A DNA stretch of 64,000 nucleotides from Comamonadaceae bacterium OS-1 (lineage in GTDB: Bacteria; Pseudomonadota; Gammaproteobacteria; Burkholderiales; Burkholderiaceae_C): the NCBI GenBank assembly GCA_027923965.1, contig AP026969.1:4340001-4404000 (forward strand), written 5' to 3'. Positions 7,433 to 64,000 of the stretch are shown here, one piece after another. How positions within the stretch are numbered: the stretch's first letter is position 1; every line of letters starts with the position of its first letter. The notes beneath the pieces were generated by a model. The model saw only the letters and a list, made by a program, of their open reading frames with translations. It was not told the DNA's origin and searched no databases. Position numbers and translations under genes: made by a program.

Positions 7433-8098
7433 ATGCAAGAGACATTGGACGGTTGGATGCGCCAGCGGGCGCGGGAGCTGGGTTTGAACCTGAGCGCACT
7501 GTGCAAGCAGGCCGGCATAGGGCGGCAAACCCTGTACGACCTGGCCTGCATTCCCGACAAGCTCCCGTCCATGCAAACGGTGGTGGCGCTGGCCGATGTG
7601 TTGCAGGTGCACCCGCTGCGCATCCTGCATCTGGTGTTTGATACCGTGCCCATCAAACCGGCGGTGAAACGGGCCCAGCAGCAGGGCGACCGCAGCGCCT
7701 TCGTGCGGGATGTGACAGCCCCGGATGGCGCGCTGGTGCTGCCGGGCCAGCGCTTCACCAAAACCTGGGAGCTGCAAAACGCGGGCAACGTGCCCTGGCA
7801 GGGGCGCTTTTTGCAGTGCATGGACGAAGAGGTGGTGGTAGCCACCCGCACCGGCGAAACCCTGCATCTGGCGCACAACCTGGTGCCCGCCAGCAGCCGC
7901 ATTGCGGTGCCCACCACCGCGCCGGGGGCGACGGTGCAGCTCAGCGTGGAATTCACCGCGCCGCAGCCGCCGGGCACGGTACTGTCGTACTGGAAGTCGG
8001 TGTTTGCCGATGGCACGCTGTGCTTTCCCGACAGCGTGGGGGTGTGGGTGAAAGTGCGGGTCAACACCTGTACCCAGGGGGCCTTCAACGGTGCCTGA
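7433..8098 (+). CDS. HTH protein with C-terminal NBR1-type Ig-like domain
   Basis: A 221-residue cytosolic protein. Residues 1-70 form an XRE/lambda-repressor-like helix-turn-helix (NLSALCKQAGIGRQTLYDLA, then SMQTVVALADVLQV). Residues about 95-215 match the NBR1 Ig-like domain pattern: PGQRFTKTWELQNAGNVPWQGRFL, then SVEFTAPQPPGTVLSYWKS and a terminal VWVKVRV. In eukaryotes that domain is found in autophagy receptors; in bacteria it occurs in varied proteins of unknown role. There is no signal peptide. It stands alone between the convergent GGDEF gene and the divergent lipoprotein gene. Function is unknown; a regulator sensing a protein or polymer through the Ig-like domain is a guess. Confidence 0.75.
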   Translation: MQETLDGWMRQRARELGLNLSALCKQAGIGRQTLYDLACIPDKLPSMQTVVALADVLQVHPLRILHLVFDTVPIKPAVKRAQQQGDRSAFVRDVTAPDGALVLPGQRFTKTWELQNAGNVPWQGRFLQCMDEEVVVATRTGETLHLAHNLVPASSRIAVPTTAPGATVQLSVEFTAPQPPGTVLSYWKSVFADGTLCFPDSVGVWVKVRVNTCTQGAFNGA

Positions 8099-48140: not shown

Positions 48141-51100
48141 ATGAACGTTTCCTCCTGGTCCATCAAGAACCCCATTCCGGCGGTGATGCTGTTTGTGCTG
48201 CTGACCTTTGCCGGGCTGCTGTCCTTCAACGCCATGAAGGTGCAGAACTTCCCCGACATCGACCTGCCCACGGTCACCGTGTCCGCCAGCCTGCCCGGCG
48301 CGGCCCCGGCCCAGCTGGAAACCGAGGTGGCCCGCAAGCTGGAAAACTCCATCGCCACCGTGCAGGGCCTGAAGCACATCTACACCTCGGTGAGTGACGG
48401 CGCGGTCACCGTCACCGCCGAGTTCCGGCTGGAAAAGCCGGTGCAGGAGGCGGTGGACGATGTGCGCTCTGCCGTGGCCCGCGTGCGCAGCGACCTGCCG
48501 GGCGACGTGCGCGACCCCATCGTCAACAAGGTGGACATGGCGGCCCAGCCGGTACTGGCCTTCACCATCCGCTCGTCCAAGCTGGATGCCGAGGCGCTGT
48601 CGTGGTTTGTCGATAACGACATCACCCGCAAGCTGCTGGCCGTGCGCGGCGTGGGGGCGGTGAGCCGCGTGGGCGGCGTAACCCGCGAGGTGCAGGTGGC
48701 GCTGGACCCGCTCAAACTGCAGGCGCTGGGTGCCACTGCCGCCGACATCTCGCGCCAGCTGCGGCTGGTGCAGCTCGACAGCGCCGGGGGCCGTGCCGAC
48801 CTGGGCGTGGGCGAACAGCCGGTACGCACCCTGGCCACGGTGCAGACCGCCCAAGAGCTGGGCCAGCTGCAACTGGCGCTGAGCGATGGCCGCCGCATCC
48901 GCCTCGACCAGGTGGCCACGGTGACGGACACGGTGGCCGAGCAGCGCTCTGCGGCCCTGCTCAATGGCCAGCCGGTGGTGGGCTTTGAGGTGTCGCGCAG
49001 CCGCGGCGAGAGCGAGGTGGCGGTGGGCGCGGCGGTGCAAAAAGCGCTGGCCGAGATGAAGCTGCAACACCCCGACATGGAGCTCACCGAGTCCTTCAAC
49101 TTTGTGGCCCCGGTGGAAGAGGAATACACCGGCTCCATGCACCTGCTGTACGAGGGCGCGATTTTGGCGGTGGCCGTGGTGTGGCTGTTTTTGCGCGACT
49201 GGCGGGCCACCTTGGTGTCGGCCGTGGCGCTGCCGCTGTCGGTGATTCCGGCCTTCATCGGCATGCAGATGCTGGGCTTTTCGGTCAACGTGATCACGCT
49301 GCTGGCGCTGTCGCTGGTGGTGGGCATCCTGGTGGACGACGCGATTGTGGAGGTGGAAAACATCGTGCGCCACCTGCGCATGGGCAAAACCCCCTACCAG
49401 GCGGCCATGGAGGCAGCGGACGAGATTGGCCTGGCCGTGGTGGCCACCACCTTCACCCTGGTGGCGGTGTTTTTGCCCACGGCCTTCATGAGCGGCATTG
49501 CGGGCAAGTTCTTCAAGCAGTTTGGCTGGACCGCCTCGCTGGCGGTGGTGGCATCGCTGATCGTGGCGCGGGTGCTCACGCCCATGATGGCGGCCTACAT
49601 CTTGAAGCCCATCGTCGGGGCCGAGAAGGACGCAGGCTGGATGCGCGTGTACATGCGCTGGGCCACCTGGTGCCTGAAGCACCGGGTGCTGACCATGGTG
49701 GGCGCCACGGTGTTTTTCTTTGGCTCCATCGCGCTGATTCCGCTGCTGCCCACTGGCTTCATCCCGCCCGACGACAACTCGCAAACCCAGGTGTACATCG
49801 AGCTGCCGCCCGGCTCCACCCTGGCGCAAACCAAGGTATCTGCCGAGCAGGCGCGCACCCTGATTGCAAAAGTAGAGCACGTCAAAAGCATCTACACCAC
49901 CATCGGCGGCGGCAGCGCGGGCGGCGACCCGTTTGCTCCCGCCGGGGCCGCCGAGGCACGCAAGGCCACACTGACCATTCTGCTCAGCGACCGGGGCGAG
50001 CGACCGCGCAAGCAGGGCATCGAGAACGCCATCCGCACCGCGCTGGAGCCGCTGCCCGGCGTGCGCAGCAAGGTCGGCCTGGGCGGCTCGGGCGAAAAGT
50101 ACGTGCTGGTGCTCACCGGCGAAGACCCCATCGCCCTGCAGGCCGCCGCGCAGGCGGTGGAAAAAGACCTGCGCACCATCCCCGGACTGGGCAGCGTTGC
50201 GTCCAGCGCCAGCCTGATCCGCCCCGAAATCGCGGTGCGGCCCGACTTTGCCCGCGCCGCCGACCTGGGCGTGACCAGCAGCGCCATCGGCGAGACGCTG
50301 CGCATCGCCACGCTGGGCGACTACGACATTTCACTGCCCAAGCTCAACCTGTCGCAGCGCCAGGTGCCCATCGTCGTCAAGCTCGATGACGCAGCCCGCA
50401 AAGACTTGAGCGTGCTGGAGCGCCTGGCCGTGCCCGGCAGCAAGGGCCCGGTGATGCTGGGCCAGGTGGCCACGCTGGAGACCAACGGCGGCCCCGCCGT
50501 CATCAGCCGCTACGACCGCACCCGTAACGTCAACTTCGAGATCGAGCTCTCGGGCCTGCCGCTGGGCGATGTGAAAGAAGCGGTGGACAAGCTGCCCGCC
50601 ATGGCCCAGCTGCCGCCCGGCGTGAAGGTGGTGGAAATTGGCGATGCCGAGGTGATGGGCGAGCTGTTTGCCAGCTTCGGCCTGGCCATGCTGACGGGCG
50701 TGCTGTGCATCTACATCGTGCTGGTGCTGCTGTTCAAGGACTTCCTGCACCCCGTCACCATTCTGTGCGCGCTGCCGCTGGCGCTGGGCGGGGCCTTCGT
50801 GGGCCTGCTGATCGCACAAAAAAGCTTCTCCATGCCCTCGCTGATCGGCCTGATCATGCTCATGGGCATCGCCACCAAAAACTCCATCCTGCTGGTGGAA
50901 TACGCCATCGTGGCCCGCCGCGACCATGGCATGACCCGGGTGGAGGCCCTGCTCGATGCCTGCCACAAACGCGCCCGCCCCATCATCATGACGACCCTGG
51001 CCATGGGCGCAGGCATGCTGCCGATTGCGCTGGGCTGGGGCGCGGCAGACTCCAGTTTCCGCAGCCCGATGTCGGTGGCGGTGATCGGCGGGCTGATCAC

Positions 51101-51236
51101 CTCCACCGTGCTGAGCTTGCTGGTGGTGCCCGCCGTGTTTACCTACATCGACGACCTGGAGCACTGGTTCAGGCGCATGGGCGCGAAGCTGCGGGGGAAA
51201 CCGGTGCCGGCACCGCAGACCAAGGCGCTATCGTAA
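48141..51236 (+). CDS. RND-family efflux pump permease
   Basis: A 1031-residue inner-membrane proton-driven pump of the AcrB/HAE1-like superfamily. It has twelve predicted helices; TM1 begins NPIPAVMLFVLLTFAGLL. The TM4 charged motif is VVGILVDDAIVEVENIVRHL, with the conserved Asp pair. Two large periplasmic loops and the second-half motif GIATKNSILLVEYAIVAR are present. It is 10 bp after the adaptor gene. The substrate is unknown. The 3' end, from GCGGGGGAAACCG through the stop into the repeat, is duplicated at 55278-55342. Confidence 0.93.
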   Translation: MNVSSWSIKNPIPAVMLFVLLTFAGLLSFNAMKVQNFPDIDLPTVTVSASLPGAAPAQLETEVARKLENSIATVQGLKHIYTSVSDGAVTVTAEFRLEKPVQEAVDDVRSAVARVRSDLPGDVRDPIVNKVDMAAQPVLAFTIRSSKLDAEALSWFVDNDITRKLLAVRGVGAVSRVGGVTREVQVALDPLKLQALGATAADISRQLRLVQLDSAGGRADLGVGEQPVRTLATVQTAQELGQLQLALSDGRRIRLDQVATVTDTVAEQRSAALLNGQPVVGFEVSRSRGESEVAVGAAVQKALAEMKLQHPDMELTESFNFVAPVEEEYTGSMHLLYEGAILAVAVVWLFLRDWRATLVSAVALPLSVIPAFIGMQMLGFSVNVITLLALSLVVGILVDDAIVEVENIVRHLRMGKTPYQAAMEAADEIGLAVVATTFTLVAVFLPTAFMSGIAGKFFKQFGWTASLAVVASLIVARVLTPMMAAYILKPIVGAEKDAGWMRVYMRWATWCLKHRVLTMVGATVFFFGSIALIPLLPTGFIPPDDNSQTQVYIELPPGSTLAQTKVSAEQARTLIAKVEHVKSIYTTIGGGSAGGDPFAPAGAAEARKATLTILLSDRGERPRKQGIENAIRTALEPLPGVRSKVGLGGSGEKYVLVLTGEDPIALQAAAQAVEKDLRTIPGLGSVASSASLIRPEIAVRPDFARAADLGVTSSAIGETLRIATLGDYDISLPKLNLSQRQVPIVVKLDDAARKDLSVLERLAVPGSKGPVMLGQVATLETNGGPAVISRYDRTRNVNFEIELSGLPLGDVKEAVDKLPAMAQLPPGVKVVEIGDAEVMGELFASFGLAMLTGVLCIYIVLVLLFKDFLHPVTILCALPLALGGAFVGLLIAQKSFSMPSLIGLIMLMGIATKNSILLVEYAIVARRDHGMTRVEALLDACHKRARPIIMTTLAMGAGMLPIALGWGAADSSFRSPMSVAVIGGLITSTVLSLLVVPAVFTYIDDLEHWFRRMGAKLRGKPVPAPQTKALS

Positions 51237-51245
51237 TAAGAGCTG
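51191..51245 (+). repeat. Direct repeat, first copy (RND gene 3' end)
   Basis: GCGGGGGAAACCG, CCGGCACC, GCAGACC and GCTATCG-AATAAGAGCTG occur here in order and again at 55278-55342, where a 20-bp stretch is inserted. This copy is the real 3' end of the RND pump gene. Confidence 0.75.
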
Positions 51246-51282
51246 CTTGTGCTGATGGAATAAGCGCAAGCGGCCTTTTTGT
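51227..51282 (+). repeat. Dispersed terminator-like repeat, copy R12
   Basis: GCTATCGTAATAAGAGCTGC, then TTGTGCTGATGGAATAAGCG and CAAGCGGCCTTTTTGT. It overlaps the RND stop codon. The stem GCTGCTTGTGCT/AGCGCAAGCGGC followed by TTTTT should terminate the efflux operon. Confidence 0.9.
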
Positions 51283-51286
51283 CTAA

Positions 51287-51331
51287 GATGATGCTAAATG
51301 AGTCCCCGCGAGGGACTTGTTCAGCTTTGCC
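51287..51331. mobile_element. Collapsed MITE remnant (two joined terminal repeats)
   Basis: GCTAAATGAGTCCCC is joined through GCG to AGGGACTTGTTCAGC, making a hairpin from the left and right ends of the element seen complete at 52470-52631, with no interior. It lies directly after repeat R12, as the complete copy lies after R13. Confidence 0.6.
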
Positions 51332-51391
51332 CAAAGGCTCGAACGCCCTTTGGGACAGGGGCTAGGCTGTGACGGTGGGCGCTCCGAATGC

Positions 51392-52324
51392 CTAGCTGGT
51401 CCACGCATCGCGTATGGCGCGCAGGTGGCGCCAGTCGGTCCCGCAGCAGCCGCCCAGTACATTCAGCCGCGGCAAGGCGCCTTTGAGTCCACGGTACCGT
51501 TGGGCCAGGTCTTTAGGGTCGCCTATGTCCAGTTCGGTTGAGTCGTCGAGCTCAGCGTGGCTCTTCGTCGAGGCGTTTGCACGGACACCTTGGATGCGCG
51601 CAATCCAGGGCTCGCCCACCGGCAAGGCATTTTCGAAGTGCCGCGGATGCGCGCAATTGATGGCAAAGTACGCTGGCGGCGCATACGCGTCTACTTTGCC
51701 TATCGCATCACCCAACGATTCGCCGCTTGGCAATCGGCCGTCTGTTTCTACAGTGAAAGAAATGGCCACGGGCAAACCCACCCGCTGTGCCGCTATGGAA
51801 ATACCCAGGGCCTCGGCGGCTGTGGTCATCGTGACACCGGCGAGCATGTCGACCCCGCCTGCGGCAAGCGCCTGCGCCTGCAGGAGGTGGTAATCGGCAG
51901 CTTCGTCCACACTGTTGGGGGCATCGGCAACGTAGCCGTCGCCCCGCGGGCCTATGACCCCGCTTACTACGATGGGCCCGCTGAGGCGTGGTGCCCAGCG
52001 TGAACGCATCGCGCACATCATCTGCGCCGCCTGGGTGTTCAATGCTTTCAGGCGGGTGGCATTGATGCCCATGAGAGCGGCCCAGTCGGAACTGGCGCGC
52101 CACGTGGGTGTTTCAAGTATGAAACCAGCGCCTGGCATCTCACCGCAGAGTTCAAGGTATGGAACGTAGTAACTTTTCAGTCGCTCTTGGCCAAGCTCAT
52201 CTTCCAGCAGCGTAAAGGCCGCAAAGTGTGGCAATGCCATGTTGTCGAGGAAAACGAGCGAGGTCTCGAGGCCGCCGTCGCTCAAGAAGATTTCCCCCGT
52301 GAGTTGGGGAAGTGCATGGGTCAT
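51392..52324 (-). CDS. Homocysteine S-methyltransferase family protein
   Basis: A 310-residue zinc methyltransferase that probably makes methionine from homocysteine and a methyl donor such as S-methylmethionine. The zinc cysteines are visible in FAINCAHP and near the C-terminus in GGCCGTDWRHLRAI. The N-terminal LSDGGLETSLVF and the middle GGVDMLAGVTMTTAAEAL are also typical. It is transcribed alone and bracketed by direct repeats about 1.2 kb apart, each made of a dispersed-repeat copy plus a MITE-like element, as if acquired or mobile. Confidence 0.9.
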   Translation of the reverse strand: MTHALPQLTGEIFLSDGGLETSLVFLDNMALPHFAAFTLLEDELGQERLKSYYVPYLELCGEMPGAGFILETPTWRASSDWAALMGINATRLKALNTQAAQMMCAMRSRWAPRLSGPIVVSGVIGPRGDGYVADAPNSVDEAADYHLLQAQALAAGGVDMLAGVTMTTAAEALGISIAAQRVGLPVAISFTVETDGRLPSGESLGDAIGKVDAYAPPAYFAINCAHPRHFENALPVGEPWIARIQGVRANASTKSHAELDDSTELDIGDPKDLAQRYRGLKGALPRLNVLGGCCGTDWRHLRAIRDAWTS

Positions 52325-52405
52325 GCTCCACCTCCTTCCATCGATTGGATCGTACGTTCGGGTACCACGATACTCCGGCGCGCATGCTTGGGCAACCCAG
52401 CATAT

Positions 52406-52466
52406 GCGCTATCGTAAAAGGAGCTGCTTGCGCTGATGGAATAAGCGCAAGCGGCCTTTTTCGATC
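52406..52466 (+). repeat. Dispersed terminator-like repeat, copy R13
   Basis: GCGCTATCGTAAAAGGAGCT, then GCTTGCGCTGATGGAATAAG and CGCAAGCGGCCTTTTTCGAT. It is almost identical to R12, including the GCGCTATCGTAA lead-in that in R12 is coding sequence of the RND gene. This suggests R13 was copied from R12 or vice versa. Confidence 0.9.
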
Positions 52467-52469
52467 TAA

Positions 52470-52631
52470 GGCGACGTTGAATAAGTCCCCGTGAGGCGGC
52501 GCGCCCTGGATCGGGATGGGATGCTAGGCGCAAACCGCAGACATAGCTTGGGCTATGGCGAGGATTTGCAACGACGCAGACCGCCCGAGGCCAGGGATGC
52601 GCAGACCACGAGGGACTTGTTCAGCGTTGCC
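52470..52631. mobile_element. Putative MITE, 162 bp, with imperfect terminal inverted repeats
   Basis: The left end GGCGACGTTGAATAAGTCCC and the complement of the right end GGCAACGCTGAACAAGTCCC match at 16 of 20 positions. The flanks are CTAA on the left and CTAG on the right, compatible with the 4-bp YTAR target of the IS5 family. There is no open reading frame of note inside. An IS5-type transposase would have to act in trans. Confidence 0.65.
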
Positions 52632-52637
52632 CTAGTC

Positions 52638-53573
52638 CTAGGGGGCAGCTTGCCCCCGTGCCGCCGCCAGGCAGTCCTGCAGCGCTTGGATGAGCCGCTC
52701 GGACACCAGTTTCACCACCGGTCCGGGCGGCTTGGTGGCATCTACGGCCACGCTGATCTCCTGGGGTTCTGCCCCCCGGTCCCGGATGGGGATGAAAACC
52801 AGCGTTCCGGTCGCCAGCTCCGATGCCACGTCCAGCTCGGACGTGAACACCACATGGTTGCCGCCCAGCGCCAGCTGCTTGACCAGCTGCAGCGAGTTGG
52901 TCTCGGTATAGCGGCGCGGTTCCTTGAACAGCCAGCTGTACTGCGCCTCAAGGTAACGCCGGATCGTCAGCGCCTTGCTCTGCAGCGCCACCGGGTGGGC
53001 CATGGCCTCCTGGAAACTCACCGTCTCGCGCTGCGCCAGCGGGTGGCCGGGTGCCACCACGCAGCCCAGCGGCAGCGCGCTCTTCCACAGCACCAGCAGT
53101 TCCCGGCGCGGTTTCAGGTTAAAGATGGCGGCCAGGTCGGCCTGGCCGGTCAGCAGTGCCGCCTCGGCATCGTCGGGGGTGGCCAGCGCGATGGACAGGC
53201 TGACCAGCGGATGCTGCACACCCAGATCGCGAACCAGGGCGGGCATGACGCTGGTGGCATGGCTGTCCATGGCCACCAGCGACACATGGCCCTGGTGGAT
53301 GCCCTGAAGGCGCCGGATCTCGGCGACCACCCCCCGTTCGTCCTGCAGCCAGTGGCGCGCCAGCGTGATGAGTGCGTCGCCCGAGGCCGTCAAGCGCATG
53401 CCGCGCGGTAGCCGCTCGAACAAGGGCACGCCGAGTTCGTCCTCCAGCTGCAGGATCTGCCGGTTGATGGCCGAAGCCGCCACGTGGAGTTCGCGCGCGG
53501 CCTTCTGGATGGAGCCCGAGCGCGCAACCTGGTCGGCGTAGCGAAGTCCGGCGGGAACGAGCGAATGGCGCAT
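52638..53573 (-). CDS. LysR-family transcriptional regulator
   Basis: A 311-residue regulator with N-terminal HTH (ADQVARSGSIQKAARELHVA, ASAINRQILQLEDELG) and an effector domain (GHVSLVAMDSHATSVMPALV, LLTGQADLAAIFN, LALGGNHVVFTSELDVASEL). The start at 53573 (MRHSLVPAGLRYAD) fits the family better than the longer frame. It is divergent from uraD over about 104 bp and probably controls uraD and the tctC gene behind it. Confidence 0.9.
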   Translation of the reverse strand: MRHSLVPAGLRYADQVARSGSIQKAARELHVAASAINRQILQLEDELGVPLFERLPRGMRLTASGDALITLARHWLQDERGVVAEIRRLQGIHQGHVSLVAMDSHATSVMPALVRDLGVQHPLVSLSIALATPDDAEAALLTGQADLAAIFNLKPRRELLVLWKSALPLGCVVAPGHPLAQRETVSFQEAMAHPVALQSKALTIRRYLEAQYSWLFKEPRRYTETNSLQLVKQLALGGNHVVFTSELDVASELATGTLVFIPIRDRGAEPQEISVAVDATKPPGPVVKLVSERLIQALQDCLAAARGQAAP

Positions 53574-53610
53574 GGATAGGTCAATAGAAGTGCAGACAGA
53601 GTGTACTGAT

Positions 53611-53632
53611 TTTGCGTACGCAGCACTGCAAA
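53611..53632. promoter_or_regulatory. Possible LysR operator between lysR and uraD
   Basis: TTTGC and GCAAA enclose 12 bases, and TGCGTACGCA (53613-53622) is a perfect palindrome inside. The position, midway between divergent starts, suits a LysR binding site. Confidence 0.4.
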
Positions 53633-53677
53633 AATGGTGATGGACGGCAATGATTTGCATCCCTAAGATCCGTTTCC

Positions 53678-54235
53678 ATGAGCACACGATCTACCCTGGA
53701 ACACCTCAACACCTGCGCGCCCGAGGTCTTTTGCGCCACCCTGGCCGACATCTGGGAACATGCCCCCTGGGTGGCACGCGGCGTGGTGGGCCAGCGCCCT
53801 TTTGCGACAGTCGATACCTTGCACACCGCGATGGTGGATGTGGTGGCCGCCCTGGACGAGCCCGCACGCGTCGCCTTCTATGCCGGACACCCTGAGCTGG
53901 CCGGTGACGATGCCCGCCGGGGTTCGATGACCGATGCGTCCATTGCCGAGCAGGGCACGCTTTCGCTGGCGCGGCTGGAGACACACGATGCCGCGCGCTG
54001 GAGCGCGCTCAACCAGGCCTACCGTACGCGCTTCGGCTTCCCGTTCATCCTGTGCATCCGCCGCCACACGCGGGAGTCGGCCCTGCAGGCTTTTGAGCAG
54101 CGTCTGGCGCACGACCGCGCCACCGAGCTGGCCACCACGCTCGGCGAAATCGCCGCCATCACCCGCCTGCGGCTGGACCGCCTGGTGCCCGGTGTTGCGC
54201 ATACGGCCAGCCACGGCGAATCCATTCCTTCTTGA
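53678..54235 (+). CDS. uraD: OHCU decarboxylase-like protein (ureide pathway)
   Basis: A 185-residue protein of the 2-oxo-4-hydroxy-4-carboxy-5-ureidoimidazoline decarboxylase family, which converts the urate oxidation product OHCU to (S)-allantoin. Family features are LADIWEHAPWVARGVVGQRP, FYAGHPELAGD, RWSALNQAYRTRFGFPFILC and HDRATELATTLGEIAAITRLRL in two adjoining blocks. No urate oxidase, HIU hydrolase or allantoinase gene is nearby. Instead, a LysR regulator and a TctC protein flank it, so the decarboxylase may act on another compound. Confidence 0.85.
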   Translation: MSTRSTLEHLNTCAPEVFCATLADIWEHAPWVARGVVGQRPFATVDTLHTAMVDVVAALDEPARVAFYAGHPELAGDDARRGSMTDASIAEQGTLSLARLETHDAARWSALNQAYRTRFGFPFILCIRRHTRESALQAFEQRLAHDRATELATTLGEIAAITRLRLDRLVPGVAHTASHGESIPS

Positions 54236-54270
54236 AATTCTTTCTTAACCTATCCACCCCGGAGCTATCC

Positions 54271-55251
54271 ATGACCACTCGACGCAACATTTCCCTCCTG
54301 GCGTGCGCGCTGGGCCTGCTGGCCGCCGCCCTGCCCGCCAGCGCCCAGGGCAGCTATCCCGACCACCCGGTGAAACTGCTGGTGGCACTGCCTGCTGGCG
54401 GCGGGGTGGACATCATTGCGCGCCTGGTCGGCCAGAAGCTGGCAGCCGTCACCGGCCAGCCCTTCGTGGTGGACAACCGGGCCGGAGCCTCTGGCCGCAT
54501 CGGCCTACCGGTGGTGGCCAAGTCCGCACCAGACGGCTACACGCTGATGGCCTCACCCGCCTCGTTCCTGACCACCAACAAAAGCATCTTCAAAGAGCTA
54601 CCGTACGACCCGCAGGCCGATTTCGCACCCATCACCAAGCTGGCCAACCAGTCCATGGTGCTGGTGGTCAAAGACAAGCAGAAGTTCGCCAGCGCAGCGG
54701 CGCTTCTGGCCGCAGCCAAGGCCAAGCCCGGGGGCCTGAACTACGCCAGCTCGGGCGACGGCAGCCCCCAACACCTGGCCGCCCTGATGTTCGAGACCCG
54801 GGCGCAGGTACGCATGACCCACATACCGTACAAGGGCGGCGCGCTGGCCATCACCGACCTGCTGGGTGGCAACGTGGACCTGCTGTTCGCGCCCCTGCCC
54901 GAGGCACTGCCCTACCTCAAGACCGGCAAGCTCACCGCGCTGGCGCTGATGAGCGACAAGCGCTCGGCACTGATCGCCGACGTGCCCACGATGCGCGAAG
55001 CAGGCATCCCCAACATGGTCATGCAGACCTGGATCGGCCTGCTGGCTCCCGCAGGCACGCCGCGCCCGCTCGTGGACCAGCTGAACCGCCAGGTGCACGC
55101 CATCCTGCAGAGCGAGGAGGTGAAGAAACAACTCTATGAAATCGGCATGGACCAGGCCCCCACCACCCCCGAGCAATTCCAGCAAACCATCGCCCAGGAG
55201 ATCGCGCTGCATGCCGAACTGGTGAAGGCTTCGGGGCTGGTGCCGCAATAG
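54271..55251 (+). CDS. Bug/TctC-family periplasmic solute-binding protein
   Basis: A 326-residue exported binding protein: signal peptide ending LPASAQ (about residue 26), YPDHPVKLLVALPAGGGVDIIARLVGQKL, VVDNRAGASGRIGLPVVAKSAPDGYT and KELPYDPQADFAPIT. The ATG at 54271 has GGAG eight bases upstream; an earlier in-frame ATG is less likely. It follows uraD by 35 bp and may bind a ureide or related organic acid. There are no TctAB partners nearby. Confidence 0.9.
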   Translation: MTTRRNISLLACALGLLAAALPASAQGSYPDHPVKLLVALPAGGGVDIIARLVGQKLAAVTGQPFVVDNRAGASGRIGLPVVAKSAPDGYTLMASPASFLTTNKSIFKELPYDPQADFAPITKLANQSMVLVVKDKQKFASAAALLAAAKAKPGGLNYASSGDGSPQHLAALMFETRAQVRMTHIPYKGGALAITDLLGGNVDLLFAPLPEALPYLKTGKLTALALMSDKRSALIADVPTMREAGIPNMVMQTWIGLLAPAGTPRPLVDQLNRQVHAILQSEEVKKQLYEIGMDQAPTTPEQFQQTIAQEIALHAELVKASGLVPQ

Positions 55252-55277
55252 GGGGTAGCAAAGAACTCGGTTCTGTC

Positions 55278-55342
55278 GCGGGGGAAACCGACCCCGGCAC
55301 CAGCGCGACTGCGGCCAGAGCCGCAGACCCAGTTGCTATCGG
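55278..55342 (+). repeat. Direct repeat, second copy (stray RND gene 3' end)
   Basis: It repeats the segments GCGGGGGAAACCG, CCGGCACC, GCAGACC and GCTATCG-AATAAGAGCTG of the RND gene end (51191-51245). A 20-bp stretch (AGCGCGACTGCGGCCAGAGC) is inserted. It is non-coding here and follows the tctC stop. Confidence 0.75.
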
Positions 55343-55392
55343 AATAAGAGCTGGCAATGCAGGTAGGATCAGCACAGGCAGCCTATTTTCCT
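55333..55392 (+). repeat. Dispersed repeat, copy R14 (diverged)
   Basis: TTGCTATCGGAATAAGAGCT, then GGCAATGCAGGTAGGATCAG and CACAGGCAGCCTATTTTCCT. The stem is weakened. It lies between tctC and the phosphatase gene. Confidence 0.7.
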
Positions 55393-55416
55393 CTAGACCT
55401 GAAAGTCATTTCCGCC

Positions 55417-55740
55417 ATGCCCCGCGTACTCTTCATCTGCAGCCGCAACAGATTGCGCAGCCCCACGGCGGAGCAAGTGTTCTCTACCGTCCCGGGCGTG
55501 GAAACCGACTCCGCGGGCTTGGCATCCGACGCAGACTGCCCGCTGAGCGCGGACCAGGTCGAATGGGCTGAACTCATTTTTGTGATGGAGAAACGGCACC
55601 GCACGCAGCTGGCTAAAAGATTCAAGGGTCAGTTATCTGGGAAGAAGGTGGTGTGTCTGGATATTGCGGACAACTACCATTTCATGCAGGCGGAGCTTGT
55701 GGTGTTGTTGGAGAGGCGAGTGGCGGGGCATTTGGGTTAG
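55417..55740 (+). CDS. Low-molecular-weight protein tyrosine phosphatase-like protein
   Basis: A 107-residue protein with the CX5R loop near its N-terminus (C8 to R14 in ICSRNRLRSPTAEQ) and a C-terminal LDIADNYHFMQAEL in which the aspartate may be the general acid. It is shorter than classic LMW-PTPs (about 150) but matches a compact bacterial subgroup. A start upstream at 55357 would place the repeat in the coding region, so the ATG at 55417 is preferred. It is isolated; substrate unknown. Confidence 0.82.
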   Translation: MPRVLFICSRNRLRSPTAEQVFSTVPGVETDSAGLASDADCPLSADQVEWAELIFVMEKRHRTQLAKRFKGQLSGKKVVCLDIADNYHFMQAELVVLLERRVAGHLG

Positions 55741-56052
55741 GTACATTTGCAATGCCGGAACCTAGCATTTTTAGGCGGCTTTTCACCGGCTGCTGTAGGC
55801 TGATCTGAGTCATTCACAGTTCTGGTCCTGAGCGACGGCTCTCGCCAACACCGGTCACCTTGTACCGCTGACTTTGCGGACAGGCGCCCGTTGGAAGTCC
55901 GGCGTTTATCGTCCTGCTGCAACTGCTGTTACCCGGCATATCCAGTAGCCCTGCAGCGCGTGATCTCGCGCAACCTGCGCTCGTTCTTGACGCAGTCCCG
56001 CGACTTCGTACACGCGCAGGTCTGAACCGTGGCTCAAGAATAAGGAATAGGC
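55741..56052. other. 312-bp intergenic stretch without recognised gene
   Basis: No convincing ORF, tRNA or repeat copy is seen. It includes a small inverted segment, GCCGG..CCGGC, around 55754-55790. The base composition becomes mixed, approaching the AT-richer HEPN gene. It may be a scar of insertion or the promoter region of that gene. Confidence 0.4.
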
Positions 56053-57276
56053 GTGAAAGCCAGAAAGTCGATCGCTGTACCGGAACTGCCTGCAAATATG
56101 AGCGACATGGCACGAGCGGCACTCCTAGAGCTGGAGCCCGCCGGGCCTCCGCGTTCGCCTGAGGAAGGACGCGGGCTGATGTTGTCGGCGCGAACGGAGG
56201 CCGGTCGAGGCCTTCCGCCCTACTACCTTGTCTATTTTCTTCTCGTTGATCTACTCAAGTTCCCGAGTCTTGGTCAATGGGAAAAGACCGCGTGGACGGT
56301 ACCCGTCAGGTTCCGCGGTCGCCTGTACGGCATAGAGCATCGAAAGATGGGGCTCGGCGTCTTCGAACCCAATCTCGACCCCAACGCGAGAATGAGCGGT
56401 CGGCCAAGTCAGCAAGGCGAGAAGGACGCGACCGCTATTGTCGAAGCGATCAAGAAGGCCGTCTCAGTTGCGGCCCCATACTTCCAGTGGCGTGCACAGC
56501 AAGCAATTGCGACATCTGATCTGAACGTCGTCAACAAAAACTCTGATCTGTTCGAACGCTACGAGTATTTTCGCGACCAGTTCAACGCACAGGTCGTTGA
56601 AAGCAAAGAGCTGGAAAGTAAGGCGAAGGACAGAGGAAGCGAATCCCCTGGGACGTTCAACTTCGAGCTCATCTCATCGTGGTTGTCGGTTAACAAGCAA
56701 GTAAACTGGTATGCGCTGGCTGCCATCGAAGCTTTCTTCAGTTGGACCGAGCACGCGTTTATCCATCTCGCGATACTTCAGGGAAAGCTGACCGTGGGTA
56801 CGCAAGTTGCGGAGCTCGCCGAGGACAACTGGAATGCGAAATTCAAGGCCGCACTCGACATCTCGAATAAAGACACCAAAGCGCACTACGACAAGCTCTT
56901 GGATCTTCGTGCACAGGTAAGGAACTTCGTGGCTCACGGGGCGTTTGGCAAAGAGGGCCAAGCGTTTCGTTTCCACTCGGGTGCGGGCTCCGTCTCCGTT
57001 CTGCTGACCAACGACCGAGACCATCAAGTTAGCTTCACAGGTCGCGTCGCCTTCGATGAGGCGTCGGCGATAACGGAGATCGGTTCGTTTCTTGACCACC
57101 TATGGGCGGGAGCACTGGCGCCCGCAAGGCACTATCTCTTCAGTGTCCTTCCAAGCATTCTGTCGTACGCGACTGATGGTACCTACGCACGCGCTATGCA
57201 GTCCGAGGAGGACATGCTCAGTTTCGTCGAAGGCCTGACTCATCAGTTCGAGCAGGCTGCGGACATGGCTTGGTAG
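56053..57276 (+). CDS. HEPN-like protein of unknown function
   Basis: A 407-residue cytosolic protein, visibly AT-richer and with different codon use from its neighbours. It starts at a GTG with AAGGA six bases upstream. The C-terminal half is helical and contains R290-NFVA-H295, the Rx4-6H motif of HEPN ribonucleases, after a helix YALAAIEAFFSWTEHAFIHLA. The N-terminal half is unassigned. HEPN proteins are often toxins, tRNA or mRNA nucleases, or defence effectors. The rloAB pair downstream makes a defence role plausible, but there is no overall match I can name. Confidence 0.6.
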   Translation: MKARKSIAVPELPANMSDMARAALLELEPAGPPRSPEEGRGLMLSARTEAGRGLPPYYLVYFLLVDLLKFPSLGQWEKTAWTVPVRFRGRLYGIEHRKMGLGVFEPNLDPNARMSGRPSQQGEKDATAIVEAIKKAVSVAAPYFQWRAQQAIATSDLNVVNKNSDLFERYEYFRDQFNAQVVESKELESKAKDRGSESPGTFNFELISSWLSVNKQVNWYALAAIEAFFSWTEHAFIHLAILQGKLTVGTQVAELAEDNWNAKFKAALDISNKDTKAHYDKLLDLRAQVRNFVAHGAFGKEGQAFRFHSGAGSVSVLLTNDRDHQVSFTGRVAFDEASAITEIGSFLDHLWAGALAPARHYLFSVLPSILSYATDGTYARAMQSEEDMLSFVEGLTHQFEQAADMAW

Positions 57277-57575
57277 GCTACGAAGATGCAGAAACGGACG
57301 GTAGTACCGGCGCAAGAGACCATCAAGATGCCTACGCCATAGGGCGGCTTGAGCATGTTGGCCCATTGATTTCGCGAACAGAGATATTTGCTTGACCTCG
57401 ACGGCTGGCGTCCGCTTTGCAGCGTCATCGGCCGGTCGCCCGAACAACTGGAAGACCGCAATCGCTGCAGAGCGGAACTTGGCATCACGGCACTCAGTTT
57501 GCCGAAAGCACTAGCGATGCCAATCTCCATCGCCTACCTGACGCACCGGTTCCAACGCTTGTCGGGCATGGAGCA

Positions 57576-57674
57576 CAAGGCGCCGCATACGAAGTGTCGA
57601 GTGGATTGGAGGCAGTTGCTATATTTAGAGTAGCTTGTTACGCCCATGGGATAAGCGTTAGAGGCCGATTTTTC
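57576..57674 (+). repeat. Direct repeat flanking rloAB, left copy (with repeat copy R15)
   Basis: CAAGG.GCCGCAT is followed by a diverged stretch, then AGGCAGTTGCTATATTTA and the body GTAGCTTGTTACGCCCATGG, GATAAGCGTTAGAGGCCGAT, TTTTC. The same order, including the about 40 bp before the repeat proper, recurs at 59828-59930 after rloB. Confidence 0.7.
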
Positions 57675-57775
57675 ATCCAAACCCAAAATGCGACTCCTTT
57701 CATACCCCACGTTCTCTTCATCAGCAGGCCTTATCTGCTTTTCCACATCAAAAATCCGATGCAGATATAAATAAG

Positions 57776-57803
57776 TTCACTATTTGCTTCGATAGGTCAT
57801 AAT
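57776..57803 (+). promoter_or_regulatory. Possible sigma-70 promoter of rloAB
   Basis: TTCACT (57776-57781) and CATAAT (57798-57803) are spaced 16 bp apart, in an AT-rich stretch about 35 bp upstream of the rloA ATG. Identified by eye only. Confidence 0.35.
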
Positions 57804-57838
57804 TTCAGTATATTTTTACTCCCACCTGGATAAACACA

Positions 57839-59110
57839 ATGCTGGTCGAGTTCCGCACCAAGAACTTCCGTAGCCTGCGCGACGAGCAGGTGCTCAGTCT
57901 GGTGGCGTCCACGGACAAGACCTTGCTGGACACCCATGCCTTGGGTACCGGGCTGAAGGCGGCCCCGCACGTACTCAAGAGCGCGGTGGTGTACGGTGCC
58001 AACGCCAGTGGCAAGTCCAACCTCGTCAAGGCGCTGCAATTCATGCGTGGTGTGGTGCTGCAGTCGGCCGCGCTGCAGCCGGGGCAGACCTTTGACCGAC
58101 TCCAGCCCTTCAAGCTGGATGCCACATCGGGCAGCCAACCCACGGCGTTCGAAGTCACCTTCGTCCTGGGCGGTGTGCGTTACCAGTATGGGTTTGCCAT
58201 GGATGCGCAGCGCATCGTGGGCGAGCAACTTTTGGTCTACAAGGCATTCAAGCCGCAACGCTGGTTTGAGCGCCACTTCGATGCCGAAAGTGGCAAGGAT
58301 GTGTACGAATTTGGCTCGGGCCTGAAGGGTGCCAAGAACCTGTGGGAGGGTGCGACACGGCCCAATGCCTTGTTCCTGGCGGTGGCCGTGCAGCTCAACA
58401 GCGAGGCGTTGCGCCCGGTGTATGACTGGTTCGCCAACCGGCTTGTCATCTTTAACGAGCAAACGCCTTTGTCTCCGCAGTTCTCGGTACACATGCTCAA
58501 GCAGGAGGCACAGCGCAAAGCGATTTGCGCGTTTTTGCAGGCGGCGGATACCAGCATTGCCGACATTGAAGTGGCCACCCAGCAGGCCATGGTGCACACC
58601 ATCAATTTTGACCTTGCCACCGGCAAACGCGAGGAGACAGCCGGTGAGCAGGCGGTGGAGGAAGTGAGGTTTCACCATGTCACCGAGCAGGGCAAGGCGG
58701 TATTCGACCTGGCGGACGAATCCAGTGGTACCCGCAACCTCTTGTTCCTCACCGGGCCCATCCTGGACATCCTCAACAAGGGGCTGACGCTGGTGGTGGA
58801 CGAGCTCGACACCAGCCTACACACGCTGCTGGTGCAGGCGCTGGTGCGCTTGTTTCACCGGCCTGAGGTCAACACCGGCGGCGCACAGCTGGTCTTTACC
58901 ACGCACGACACCTCGCTGCTCGATGCCTACGGCCTGTTCCGGCGCGACCAGATCTGGTTTATGGAAAAGCGCCCGGACCAAAGCTCGTCGCTGTACCCGC
59001 TGCTCGACTTCAGCCCGCGCAAGAATGAAGCGCTGGAGCGCGGCTATTTGCAAGGGCGCTACGGTGCGCTGCCGCTCTTGCGCAACCAGGCTTTGGGGGT
59101 GCCGGGCTGA
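57839..59110 (+). CDS. RloA-type AAA ATPase (AbiLi-like)
   Basis: A 423-residue ATPase of the AAA_15/21 (SMC/OLD-like) group. The N-terminus LVEFRTKNFRSLRDEQVLSL is typical. Walker A is GANASGKS (residues 53-60), Walker B LVVDELDTSLH (near 318), with TTHDTSLLD (near 345) as the switch region. Such ATPases pair with RloB-like Toprim proteins in RloAB/AbiL anti-phage systems, where the ATPase is thought to sense infection and the partner to damage RNA or DNA. Its stop overlaps the rloB start by one base. Confidence 0.85.
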   Translation: MLVEFRTKNFRSLRDEQVLSLVASTDKTLLDTHALGTGLKAAPHVLKSAVVYGANASGKSNLVKALQFMRGVVLQSAALQPGQTFDRLQPFKLDATSGSQPTAFEVTFVLGGVRYQYGFAMDAQRIVGEQLLVYKAFKPQRWFERHFDAESGKDVYEFGSGLKGAKNLWEGATRPNALFLAVAVQLNSEALRPVYDWFANRLVIFNEQTPLSPQFSVHMLKQEAQRKAICAFLQAADTSIADIEVATQQAMVHTINFDLATGKREETAGEQAVEEVRFHHVTEQGKAVFDLADESSGTRNLLFLTGPILDILNKGLTLVVDELDTSLHTLLVQALVRLFHRPEVNTGGAQLVFTTHDTSLLDAYGLFRRDQIWFMEKRPDQSSSLYPLLDFSPRKNEALERGYLQGRYGALPLLRNQALGVPG

Positions 59111-59784
59111 TGGGGCGCGACAACCAGGCCAAAGACCGGCAGTTGCGCCGCAAGGCAAGCAAGGAGGCGCAGCGTGCCAGTTACGCCCGCATCCTGGTCG
59201 TGACCGAGGGCAGCAAGACCGAGCCGCTGTATCTGGAGGAGATCCGCGCCGCGCACCATCTGCATTCCGCCAATGTGGAAGTCCAGCCGGGTCAGCTGGG
59301 CACCGCGCCCATCCAGGTGGTGCGTTATGCCCAGCAACTGTTTGAAGTAGGTGATCTGCGCAAAGGCATTCGCGCCAAAAGCTTCGACCAGGTCTATGCC
59401 GTGTTTGACCGCGACGACCACGACAGCTATTTCAACGCCCTGGATGTGGCAAAGGCGCTGGATGGCAAGCTGCGCAATGACGAGAGGCAGCCGGTTGGCT
59501 TCAAGGCCGTCGCGTCCATTCCCAGCTTCGAGCTATGGTTGTTGTTGCACTACGAGGATGTTCAAGCGCCGATGCACCGTGATGCGGTGATGGACCGTTT
59601 GAAGCAGCACATCCCCGGCTATGACAAAGGTGCAGGCGGCGCGTTTGCGATCACCCGCAACCGGCTGGACACGGCGACACAGCGGGCGCAAGCGCTGGCG
59701 GTCAAGTTCGATGCCTACAGCGACCCCGAGCCCTTCACCGCACTGCACGAACTGGTCACGCTGCTGACCACGCTACGCGCCTGA
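59110..59784 (+). CDS. RloB-type Toprim-like protein (AbiLii-like)
   Basis: A 224-residue protein with the RloB signature: ILVVTEGSKTEPLYLEEI (Glu33 of the Toprim fold), AVFDRDDHDS (D100, D102 and D103 as metal ligands) and the conserved SIPSFELWLLLHYED. RloB-family proteins are predicted Toprim nucleases. Together with the ATPase (1-bp overlap) it forms a two-gene system. Both genes are less GC-rich than the amylosucrase next door. Confidence 0.88.
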   Translation: MGRDNQAKDRQLRRKASKEAQRASYARILVVTEGSKTEPLYLEEIRAAHHLHSANVEVQPGQLGTAPIQVVRYAQQLFEVGDLRKGIRAKSFDQVYAVFDRDDHDSYFNALDVAKALDGKLRNDERQPVGFKAVASIPSFELWLLLHYEDVQAPMHRDAVMDRLKQHIPGYDKGAGGAFAITRNRLDTATQRAQALAVKFDAYSDPEPFTALHELVTLLTTLRA

Positions 59785-59827
59785 ATAGGTTCGATCACAG
59801 GGAACACGGACTCCAACGCACGGTGGG

Positions 59828-59930
59828 CAAGGTGCCGCATGGCGAGTGCGAGGCGAGATGCAGGCAGTTGCTATATTTATAGCAGCTACTTACGCCCTCG
59901 GGATCAGCACAAGAGCCTGATTTTTCTTAA
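59828..59930 (+). repeat. Direct repeat flanking rloAB, right copy (with repeat copy R16)
   Basis: CAAGGTGCCGCAT, a diverged stretch, AGGCAGTTGCTATATTTA, then TAGCAGCTACTTACGCCCTC, GGGATCAGCACAAGAGCCTG and ATTTTTC. It is the counterpart of 57576-57674. The repeat body should terminate rloB. Confidence 0.7.
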
Positions 59931-60069
59931 ATTTTGAACCGCAGTACTGGTGTTTTCCCTGTGCCCGCAGCAGGCCATTCCAGCTTCAAATCCCTCTGCT
60001 TCAAAGCGCTTTGAACGGCGGGTTCCCGTACACTCGCCGCTGCCCATTTACCCACCCACTGGCCGCACC

Positions 60070-61977
60070 ATGCTTTCCGTCGCACACCAAACCCAACTCG
60101 CCCACCAGCACGTCGTCGCCGCCCTCAAAGCCCGCCCCGAGGCCAAGGCGGCGCGCAAGGCGTGGAACGCATTTGCGGCCCGACTGGACGCACACTTCCC
60201 GCAATTGGTGAAAGAGCTGGCCCCGCTGTACGGCGCGCGGCCCGACTTTCTGGACTTTTTGGTGGACCTGCTGTCCAAGGCCTTCGATGCCTGGAACGCC
60301 CGCCCGGCCGATCTTCAGGCGCTGGACGTGCAGCGCGAGAAAAACCCGCGCTGGTTCCAGTCGCAAAAAATGCTGGGCGGCGTGTGCTACGTGGACCTGT
60401 ATGCGGGCAACCTGAAGGGCCTGCAGAAGCAGATTCCCTACTTCAAGGAGCTGGGGCTGACGTATCTGCACCTGATGCCGCTGTTTAAATGCCCCGACGG
60501 CAACAGCGACGGCGGCTACGCGGTCAGCAGCTACCGCGAGGTGAACCCGGCCCTGGGCAAGATGGAAGACCTGCAGAACCTGGCCGCCGCGCTGCGCGCC
60601 GAGGGCATCAGCCTGGTGCTGGACTTCATCTTCAACCACACCTCGGACGAGCACGCCTGGGCCACGGGTGCAGTGGCGGGCGACCCGCAGTACGCCGACT
60701 TCTACTACCTGTTCCCCGACCGCACGCTGCCCGACGCGTACGACAAGACCGTGCGCGAGATCTTCCCCGACCAGCACCCCGGCGCGTTTTCGCAACTGCC
60801 CGATGGCCGCTGGGTCTGGACCACCTTCAACAGCTTCCAGTGGGACCTGAACTACAGCAACCCGGCGGTGTTTACCGCCATGGCGGGCGAGATGCTGGCG
60901 ATTGCCAACCTGGGCACCGAGATCTTGCGCATGGACGCGGTGGCTTTTGTGTGGAAGCGCCTGGGCACGGTGTGCGAGAACCTGCCCGAGGCGCACACGG
61001 TGATCCGCGCGTTCAGCGCCCTGGTGCGCATTGCCGCGCCCAGCATGCTGTTCAAGAGCGAGGCCATCGTGCACCCGGACGATGTGGTCAAGTACATCTC
61101 GCCCGAGGAATGCCAACTCTCGTACAACCCGCTGCAGATGGCCTTGCTGTGGAACAGCCTGGCCACGCGCGAGGTGAATTTGCTGCAGCAGGCCCTGGAA
61201 CAGCGCCACAACCTCGACCCCGACACGGCTTGGGTCAACTACGTGCGCAGCCACGACGACATTGGCTGGACCTTTGCCGACGAAGATGCCATCCAGCTGG
61301 GCATCCACGGCTTTCCGCACCGGCAGTTTTTGAACCGCTTTTATGTGAACCGCTTCGAGGGCAGCTTTGCCCGCGGCGTGCCGTTCCAGGACAACCCCGC
61401 CACCGGCGACTGCCGCATCAGCGGCACCTGCGCGTCGCTGACGGGCATTGAGCAAGGCGACCCGCTGGCCCCGGCGCGCATTTTGCTGCTGCACAGCGTG
61501 GCCCTGAGCACCGGCGGCATGCCGCTGATCTACCTGGGCGACGAGGTCGGCACGCCCAACGATGCCAGCTACCTGAACGACCCCGCCAAGGCCGGCGACA
61601 GCCGCTGGGTGCACCGCCCGGCCCGCGTGCCCGCCCTGTACAGCCAGCGGAATAAAAAGAACAGCGTGCCCGGCCAGATCTACCAGGGCCTGCGCCGCAT
61701 GGTGCAGGTGCGCACGTCGCTGGAAGAGTTTGCCGGGGGCCAGCTCACCGGCTTTCGGGCTGGCAACCCCAGCGTGCTGGGCTATCTGCGCGGTGTGCCG
61801 GGTGCGCATGTGCTGGCGCTGGCCAACTTCAGCGAGCACCCGCAAACCTGCCCGGCCATCGTCTTCAGCGCCCAGCCCGAGAGCGCGGTGGACCTGCTGA
61901 CCGGCGAGGCGCGCAACCTGCACGCCGGGCTGACGCTGGCACCGTATGAGGTGCTGTGGCTGGATTGCCGCGCTTAA
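60070..61977 (+). CDS. Amylosucrase
   Basis: A 635-residue GH13 enzyme that builds an alpha-1,4-glucan from sucrose, releasing fructose. The length equals that of Neisseria polysaccharea amylosucrase (636). Catalytic sites are [10 protein letters not shown] (nucleophile Asp), FKSEAIV (acid Glu) and [11 protein letters not shown] (transition-state Asp); [16 protein letters not shown] marks the early barrel. There is no signal peptide, so it acts in the cytosol. The chosen ATG ([14 protein letters not shown]) fits the family N-terminus better than the longer frame from 59950. Its stop shares TTAA with the convergent GT2 stop. Confidence 0.93.
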
Positions 61978-62966
61978 GAGCGCTTCAACAGACTGCGGGC
62001 GATGTGCTTGGGGTGCACCACCCGCAGCGCGCCGCCCCAGCCGGATAGCTGGCGGATGAAAGCCAGCCCCTCGCGGTATTCGCGCCAGCCTTTCTGGCAG
62101 CACAGGTACATGTAGTCTTTGGCGCAGGCCTGCATTTCTGCCAGGCAGGCGGCCCGGTTGGCCGGGCTCAGGCGCAGGGCCGGGTTGTCGCGCACCATCT
62201 GGATGGCCCGCAGGCCGTTGGCGGCATTGCGCTGGGCGTTTTTAATCTGCGAGGCGTTGTCGTCGTGCCAGCGGTAGCGGGTAATGGATTCGCTGGTGTA
62301 GACAAAGTCGCCCAGCAAGACCAGGCGCACCAGAAACTCGCGGTCTTCGGCCGTGCCCAGGCTTTCGTTGAACACGCCCACGGTGTCGATGGCCGAGCGC
62401 GCCACCACCAGGCTGGAGGGCTTGATGAAGTTGCCCTTGACCAGCCGGGGAAAGATGGTGGAGTCGATGCGGTAGCAGGCGGTGCCCGCAATCGGCGCGC
62501 CGTATTTTTTGGACGGATTGCCCCAGAAGTCGTCGTACAGGCGCTCATTGGGCACGTCGCCCGCAAACAAGCGGCCCGCTCCGTAGGCCGCAATGGCCGA
62601 GGGCACCAGGGCCAGCGCCGCCACCAATGTTTCGAGGTGGAACGGCTCCCAGATGTCGTCGGCATCCAAGAACGCAATCCAGTCGCCCGTGGCCAGGCGG
62701 ATGCCCTGGTTGCGGGTGGCCGAGATGCCGCTGTTGGCCTGGTCGTGCAGGCACACGCTGAAAGGGGCATTGTGCTGCGCCACCCAGTCGCGGATCACCT
62801 GGCTGGTGGCATCCTTGGAGCCGTCGTTGACCACCACCACCTGCACGGGTAGCAGGGTCTGCCGGGCAATGCCGTCCAGGGCATCGGTGATGAAACCAGC
62901 GGCGTTGTAGGCCGGTATCACCACCGATATCTGGGGGGCGGCGGATGAAACTGTTGTTTCGGGCAT
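61974..62966 (-). CDS. Family 2 glycosyltransferase
   Basis: A 330-residue GT-A glycosyltransferase: [18 protein letters not shown] at the N-terminus, [15 protein letters not shown], and the metal-binding [18 protein letters not shown]. The C-terminal part (about 200-330) is typical of polysaccharide or glycoprotein transferases. It is read toward amylosucrase and divergent from the GT10 gene. It probably adds a sugar to a surface polysaccharide; donor unknown. Confidence 0.9.
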
Positions 62967-63201
62967 CAATTTCTTTCTCAAGACAAGGGCAAAAGCAGCG
63001 TTGGGGATGATAGTCCCGGCCAAACGCCAAATCTGCCACAGTTCTTGGCACCTGCGGCTGCGCCATCCCCTAAACTCGTTAGCTACCCTGCCAACGGCCA
63101 TTGCCGGATTTTACTCCCCCTTATTGCCTAAACTAAACCCAATTAGGCTAAGATATGGAAACCCAAATAAACCGCAATCATCTTATTTTTTTAAGAGAAA
63201 A

Positions 63202-64000
63202 ATGTTAATTCGAATCGACAAAGACTGGGGATTCCCCGATGTAAAGCAGCAGAGTCCGGCATCGACCTGCAAATGGGGCGATTTTGAATTCACTTTTGAG
63301 CCGGTCAAGGAGTGCGATTTATTAATTTCTCTCAACCCACCCAACAAAGAAATTAAAGTCAAATGCCCACCAGGAAACAAATGGTTGTTTACGCTGGAAT
63401 CTCCTATCGACCAATATAAATGGCACATCGATTCTTTTGAATACTTCGATAAGGTTTTTACATACTGGGATGATTCTGTAGCAGGAAACATTTTGCACGA
63501 GCAAACCGCCTTACCTTGGCATATCGGTCGGAGTTACGACCAACTAATGGCTCTTACCCGTGAGCCTGGTTTGCTAATAAAAAAAGATGCCGTTTCATGG
63601 GTTACCAGCAATGCTACCCACAAAGAAGGTCATAAATTACGAATGGGCTTTAAAGATTATTTGATTGAACAGGGATTCAGTTTTGATCTTTTTGGAAGAG
63701 GTTTCAATCCCATCGACGACAAGTTTGATGGAATTTACCCCTACAAATATAGCCTCGCAATAGAAAACTATCCATGCAACGACTATTGGACTGAAAAAAT
63801 TGCCGACTGCTTTTTATCCTGGACTGTACCTATTTACTGGGGATGCAAAAATATTCTGTCTTACTTCCCGGAAAAATCGATCATCTTGATCGATCCCAGT
63901 GACCCCCAAGCTGCGTTGAAAACTATTCGACATGCCATTGATAGTGGTTACTACCATCAGAACCTGGATGCACTGGCAGAGGCACGGGATTTGGTACTGA
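63202..64000 (+). CDS. Family 10 glycosyltransferase (alpha-1,3-fucosyltransferase type), partial
   Basis: The frame opens at 63202 and runs off the window end with no stop; 266 residues are visible. The nucleotide-sugar site is recognisable: YSLAIENYPCNDYWTEKIAD, then SWTVPIYWGC and SYFPEKSIILID. This matches the FxFENxxxxDYxTEK-type motif of GT10. It is strongly AT-rich with A/T-ending codons, unlike all genes upstream, so it is very probably recently acquired. The product likely decorates lipopolysaccharide or capsule with fucose or a related deoxysugar. Confidence 0.88.
   Translation, partial: MLIRIDKDWGFPDVKQQSPASTCKWGDFEFTFEPVKECDLLISLNPPNKEIKVKCPPGNKWLFTLESPIDQYKWHIDSFEYFDKVFTYWDDSVAGNILHEQTALPWHIGRSYDQLMALTREPGLLIKKDAVSWVTSNATHKEGHKLRMGFKDYLIEQGFSFDLFGRGFNPIDDKFDGIYPYKYSLAIENYPCNDYWTEKIADCFLSWTVPIYWGCKNILSYFPEKSIILIDPSDPQAALKTIRHAIDSGYYHQNLDALAEARDLVL

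Follow-up and report, generated by a model that had tools for sequence, protein, structure and literature searches.

Do three genes that sit side by side on one strand make up a single anti-phage system, or are they simply neighbours? The question is raised by a locus in Comamonadaceae bacterium OS-1. It lies in a stretch of 64,000 nucleotides (bases 4340001-4404000 of the single-contig, 5.12-Mb genome) that we call the window and whose numbering we use throughout. The three genes, all on the plus strand, encode a 407-residue HEPN-like protein (56053-57276), the ATPase RloA (57839-59110) and the Toprim protein RloB (59110-59784). An initial annotation had joined them into one defence region and perhaps one three-part system. 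We found that two anti-phage modules, independent of each other, probably occupy a variable site of the chromosome here: an AbiL-type RloA/RloB pair and a stand-alone, mobile HEPN defence gene. As judged by sequence comparison, the evidence says that the HEPN gene was separately acquired, that it and rloAB are neighbours by chance, and that the three genes are not one system.

By its sequence, the RloA/RloB pair is a complete and ordinary ATPase/Toprim module of the AbiL type. RloA (423 amino acids) has the Walker A motif GANASGKS and the Walker B motif LVVDELD that the initial annotation had pointed out. It matched AAA_21 in Pfam (4.6e-35) and AbiLi in PADLOC (6.5e-99), and additionally the PADLOC model for AriA. 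RloB (224 amino acids) matched the Pfam family RloB (1.1e-36, 195 of 195 model positions covered) and AbiLii in PADLOC (3.5e-22), and contains VTEGSKTEP and FDRDDHD, which we take to carry the Toprim acidic residues. The two genes are adjacent and co-directional, and the rloA stop and the rloB start have one base in common in TGATG (59108-59112). Thus, the AbiL-like RloA/RloB pairing with a one-base overlap, as first proposed, was borne out. This RloB is the sole RloB match in the genome. Searching solved structures by sequence yielded nothing useful for either protein.

Known AbiL (AbiLi/AbiLii) and RloA/RloB pairs likewise consist of an AAA_21 ATPase and an adjacent RloB protein, in the identical order. 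In contrast to these, the window pair has no type I restriction-modification genes beside it. According to PMC10440598, RloB is related to OLD_TOPRIM domains and AbiLii is the toxic effector of AbiL. PARIS (AriA/AriB) has a similar ATPase plus Toprim logic, and a paper on tRNA cleavage by PARIS (PMC12409363) describes AriB as a Toprim nuclease. However, the partner in the window is RloB/AbiLii, and not AriB, by both Pfam and PADLOC. By analogy with AbiL and PARIS, the ABC-like ATPase RloA would sense infection and would restrain or deliver its effector, the putative Toprim nuclease RloB.

The gene upstream of the pair is the AT-richer one that the initial annotation had described (GC content 0.564, versus 0.616 for rloA and 0.622 for rloB). 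It has a GTG start with AAGGA upstream. Its product had 1332 homologues at E ≤ 0.001 among 7997 candidates scored, and 56053-57276 is therefore a real gene. The protein is made up of an N-terminal alpha/beta part (residues ~20-155) and a HEPN part (~160-360) that contains RNFVAHG (290-296). Residues R290, N291, A294, H295 and G296 (RNxxAHG) were invariant across 55 aligned relatives, and the motif was retained in 10 divergent relatives as well. It also has the form used to define the superfamily, Rx4-6H with a polar residue after the arginine (R290 N291 ... H295). In the structural model, where local confidence is low, the motif closes helix 3 (residues 273-294, or 124-147 in the model of the domain). 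A position at the end of helix 3 or the start of the loop to helix 4 is given as a criterion for HEPN proteins in PMC3710099. The fold itself was less telling. The model of the HEPN part could be aligned over nearly the whole domain to HI0074 and HepT, and structural matches of that extent at less than 4 Å were to HEPN proteins only, but they were not significant, and Foldseek gave no significant match to models of the protein. Support for the predicted HEPN identity is thus good from the motif and from where it lies in the model, and less firm from fold comparison.

The family is new to the three libraries checked, in that Pfam, PADLOC and NCBIfam all failed to recognise the 407-residue protein, yet it would not be a new kind of system. 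The 55 members between them matched 19 Pfam families at E ≤ 5, with no HEPN model among these, in searches in which HMMER filters drop most weak matches. Solved structures searched by sequence gave nothing useful, and neither the window protein nor the P2-type variant had a match in phage records. In the open-licence literature (titles and the starts of abstracts, without supplementary tables such as those of PMC9122126), we found neither a description of the family nor a paper naming WP_032248694.1, the relative from a P2 prophage.

Several known systems resemble this protein in part. HEPN ribonucleases (RNases) such as HI0074/HepT, the integron-cassette HEPN protein 3jrt, PrrC and RloC have the same Rx4H with a polar residue after the arginine, at the end of helix 3. 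Unlike them, the window protein matches no HEPN model in Pfam and has ~150 extra N-terminal residues. It differs from HepT-type systems in that there was no MntA-type nucleotidyltransferase among 30 Pfam-scanned neighbours of its relatives. DS-11, as outlined in PMC13092281, is also a single protein with a HEPN domain and a second, presumably regulatory, domain, and its defence depends on the HEPN catalytic residues. As described there, it has CBS domains, whereas the window protein has no CBS match.

The history of the site separates the two modules. The HEPN gene lies on a 1.68-kb unit (55799-57476, plus strand; right end at 57473 or 57476 by BLAST) with ends common to four genomes. The copy in Comamonas sp. 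SCN 67-35, which is in the same family as OS-1, matches at 93% along its full length. Those in Variovorax and Achromobacter match in pieces, at 96% and 95%, respectively, on the HEPN side and 92% and 87% over the left 130 bases. We compared the site with that in G311, which by its amylase gene (97%) is the closest member of the genus. G311 matches the window up to 55763, over 58930-59256 and from 59728 onward. That is, the last 180 bases of rloA remain, together with an rloB that lacks ~470 internal bases (L071 8752-9078). The gap between contains genes that by eye are LysR-, SDR- and GST-like, and the HEPN unit is absent. From these remnants, rloAB was at the site before G311 and this genome parted, and the degraded rloAB with other genes in the gap marks the site as a turnover spot. 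In three more genus members, for which 2 to 9 kb of upstream DNA was compared, the match starts only at 59945-59948. The HEPN unit was either gained here or lost in G311; either way, comparison of the loci gives it a history of its own. The separate ends of the unit and the rloAB remnants without HEPN in G311 both lead to this conclusion.

Relatives of the HEPN gene elsewhere were not found beside rloAB. The search for such neighbours that the initial annotation had suggested gave no adjacency in 18 other HEPN loci, with no rloA or rloB match at E ≤ 1e-6 in flanks of under 1 to 12 kb. RloB was present in 2 of 19 HEPN-bearing genomes or records (this genome included; some are fragments). The second is G193, in which RloB and the HEPN gene are on separate contigs, and neither end of the contig with the HEPN gene is closer to that gene than 48 kb. 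Overlap is not totally absent: Variovorax paradoxus VAI-C carries both Old-HEPN and an RloAB pair, on different replicons. RloB relatives occurred in 26 of 72,556 plasmid records. In the three looked into (of 15 listed), no HEPN gene adjoined the RloAB pair: a Variovorax plasmid and a 3.7-kb Escherichia coli plasmid have the ATPase plus RloB and no other recognised partner, and on an Agrobacterium plasmid RloB is followed by an N-6 DNA methylase.

The places in which HEPN relatives do live support a role in defence. Few of the sampled genomes have a member: 4 of 399 in the bacterial family, 2 of 399 in the order, 2 of 369 in the class and 3 of 398 in the phylum. These samples overlap, and this genome is counted in each. 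Relatives were found in 11 of 5426 E. coli genomes, and 10 of these 11 were at least 99.7% identical to the query copy. We inspected four. In three, the relative lies between the replication endonuclease and portal genes of a P2-like prophage, and in two of these a TIR gene adjoins it. The three are thus exactly in the region between gpA and gpQ that PMC9122126 describes as a defence hotspot of P2-like prophages. In contrast, we recognised none of the genes around the window copy (50000-64000) as a phage gene. The fourth E. coli relative, 69% identical, is in a type VI secretion system region with insertion sequence remnants. In L063 (6503-11017), the HEPN gene is an integron cassette between attC-like sites; identity to the copy at 9418 is 90% for that at 6503 and 89% for that at 8001. 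An integron-integrase frame is beside it (TIGR02249, 4.7e-98). Read by eye, this integrase is interrupted by a stop codon.

Other relatives adjoin known defence genes. There is an Old-type AAA-TOPRIM gene directly upstream of HEPN in Achromobacter dolens (L032) and on a Variovorax plasmid (L041). Gabija GajA/GajB is beside HEPN in Leptothrix (L034) and on plasmid pWH01K (L042), where a methylase and a ResIII helicase come before the HEPN gene. McrC, Mrr and PIN7 are near the relative in Xenophilus (L033). The window unit differs in having neither an Old-family nuclease nor Gabija, only the flanks of a lost Old-type gene. In L055 (1773-4488), the relative follows an AAA_15 ATPase and a protein with a weak, sub-cut-off Cthe_2314-like HEPN match; profile comparison of the HEPN family with this neighbour found no relation. 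An integrase-like gene directly precedes the relative in L054, and that in L086 is on a plasmid in mobile-gene surroundings. No defence gene was recognised among the neighbours scanned, which were only some of those present, in L031, L035, L036, L059, L060 and L061. The P2-like hotspot, the integron cassette and the nearby Old, Gabija, McrC/Mrr and TIR genes together support the HEPN gene as a defence gene.

If so, the HEPN protein would act separately from RloAB, as an infection-triggered RNase. The C-terminal HEPN domain would probably cleave RNA without a metal, through an active site that includes R290 and H295; we take this chemistry from PMC3710099. The N-terminal alpha/beta domain would hold the RNase off until infection is detected. 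Once released, the HEPN domain would cut RNA and halt phage growth by abortive infection. The useful result here is the family itself, which three libraries do not recognise, although relatives adjoin known defence genes and occupy a defence hotspot of an established type; it is a cheap and concrete candidate for a plaque assay. The locus also illustrates how two unrelated modules come to adjoin and pass for one system. More tentatively, the 407-residue protein may found an uncatalogued single-gene family of anti-phage HEPN RNases that moves between integron cassettes, P2-like hotspots and plasmids. An Old/Gabija-type ATPase-nuclease would then be an optional booster, lost at least twice, and the copy in the window a working orphan.

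It is also conceivable, though unlikely, that HEPN and Old make up a two-gene system with HEPN as the effector half, and that Old has been deleted in the window, leaving an orphan that is perhaps inactive. A. dolens and the Variovorax plasmid have a common 3.8-kb Old-HEPN block (94.8%), with the Old-type gene between the pieces that match the window; these are the two loci in which Old-HEPN adjacency was seen. The window unit is ~2.1 kb shorter and has no Old-type gene. At its junction (55930-55932), the left piece is kept to 55932 and the match resumes at 55930, with TAC shared. Compared to the window, the Comamonas copy extends ~35 bases further on the left and is 9 bases shorter on the right, and it retains the Old leader to within ~7 bases of the Old start codon. 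Because the breakpoints differ and Comamonas keeps the leader, we infer that two separate losses of Old are favoured over two gains. In addition, Gabija adjoins HEPN in two more loci. However, the HEPN reading frame and motif are still intact in both Old-less versions. No ATPase partner was recognised beside HEPN in the P2-like hotspot or the integron cassette, and plasmid Old homologues had no adjoining HEPN gene of this family in 3 of 3 inspected (15 records found). We rejected Old as an obligate partner of HEPN in general, given the hotspot relatives that have no recognised ATPase partner and the three inspected plasmid Old genes that have no HEPN gene beside them.

Less likely still is a role in addiction or stress, in which the HEPN gene would encode a dormancy-inducing RNase that mobile elements carry and that does not act against phages. 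A dormancy role was proposed for integron HEPN proteins in 2013 (PMC3710099), and one relative is in an integron cassette. In L042 (9543-11083), an Xre/MbcA/ParS-type antitoxin gene overlaps the HEPN start by 4 bases, which may be a pairing with an antitoxin and was observed once, and on the plasmid in L043 there is a Phd/PemK-type pair ~1.8 kb before HEPN. Against this, there was no antitoxin family among the other Pfam-scanned neighbours, and relatives reside in a phage-encoded defence hotspot.

Finally, the three-part system, in which two effectors would share one ATPase/Toprim sensor, is very improbable. In its favour, the genes are adjacent on one strand, both modules are lower in GC than two flanking genes (0.657 and 0.660), a dispersed repeat comes after each module and G193 and VAI-C have both modules, though apart. 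However, no conserved neighbourhood was found in independent genomes, G311 has rloAB remnants and no HEPN, and neither the scarcity of RloB among HEPN-bearing genomes nor the plasmid RloAB pairs fit. We also counted against it the 562-bp gap from the HEPN stop to the rloA start, which contains a repeat, and the difference in GC at third codon positions (0.652 for the HEPN-like gene, versus 0.811 for rloA and 0.782 for rloB).

The repeats that had been described as bracketing the genes are real. The copies between the HEPN-like gene and rloA (57566-57674) and after rloB (59818-59926), both on the plus strand, are 72% alike; the first part agrees at 32 of 50 bases and the second at 47 of 59. Both are members of a dispersed family with at least 40 matches in the genome at E ≤ 1 and 31 at E ≤ 0.0133, both window copies included; the count is a lower bound, since scoring covered 40 of 59 candidates. 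The majority of the 40 lie in the second part of the repeat. At 2262 bases, the window copies are spaced more closely than any others among the 40, but random placement would give 0.4 to 0.7 such pairs, and the bracketing is thus within what chance allows. On the same grounds, we rejected the repeats as the ends of a mobile element with all three genes. A literature search on the repeat found no description of it. A weaker third copy (55330-55392, plus strand), matched in two pieces, lies before a small LMWPc-like gene. The repeat reads roughly TTGCTAT...ATAGCTGCTTACGCTTATGGGATAAGCGCTAGAGGCCGATTTTT, with small hairpins and a T-run, and occurs at ~38 further places in the genome.

The LMWPc-like gene (55417-55740, plus strand; GC 0.583), just upstream of HEPN, is just above the Pfam cut-off on the reading frame from 55357. 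It is in G311 too and is thus resident, outside the HEPN unit. We recognised no transposase at the unit ends in the window (55799 and 57476) or in L031, L032 and L041, and Rfam gave nothing at E ≤ 0.1 over 53000-63000. No attC pattern was seen by eye at the ends of the window unit, and we rejected the idea that it is itself an integron cassette. The flanking stretches of the unit, as a whole, occur once in the genome.

Some minor observations concern the relatives and the unit ends. In E. coli KMi029 (L085, 6491-9334), the HEPN gene of the P2-like hotspot is followed by three genes that matched nothing in Pfam. The relatives in L086, L087, L088 and L095 (unannotated) are distant, short or not examined further. 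A stretch like the right end of the HEPN unit recurs in L033 (14721-14755), 3.5 kb after HEPN. Nineteen bases of the left end recur exactly at 281407-281425 of the genome (E 0.02; L047 1501-1519). No right end was found in that 3-kb locus, and the site adjoins a stretch ending in GTTAGGC that is attC-like by eye, which provides a lead.

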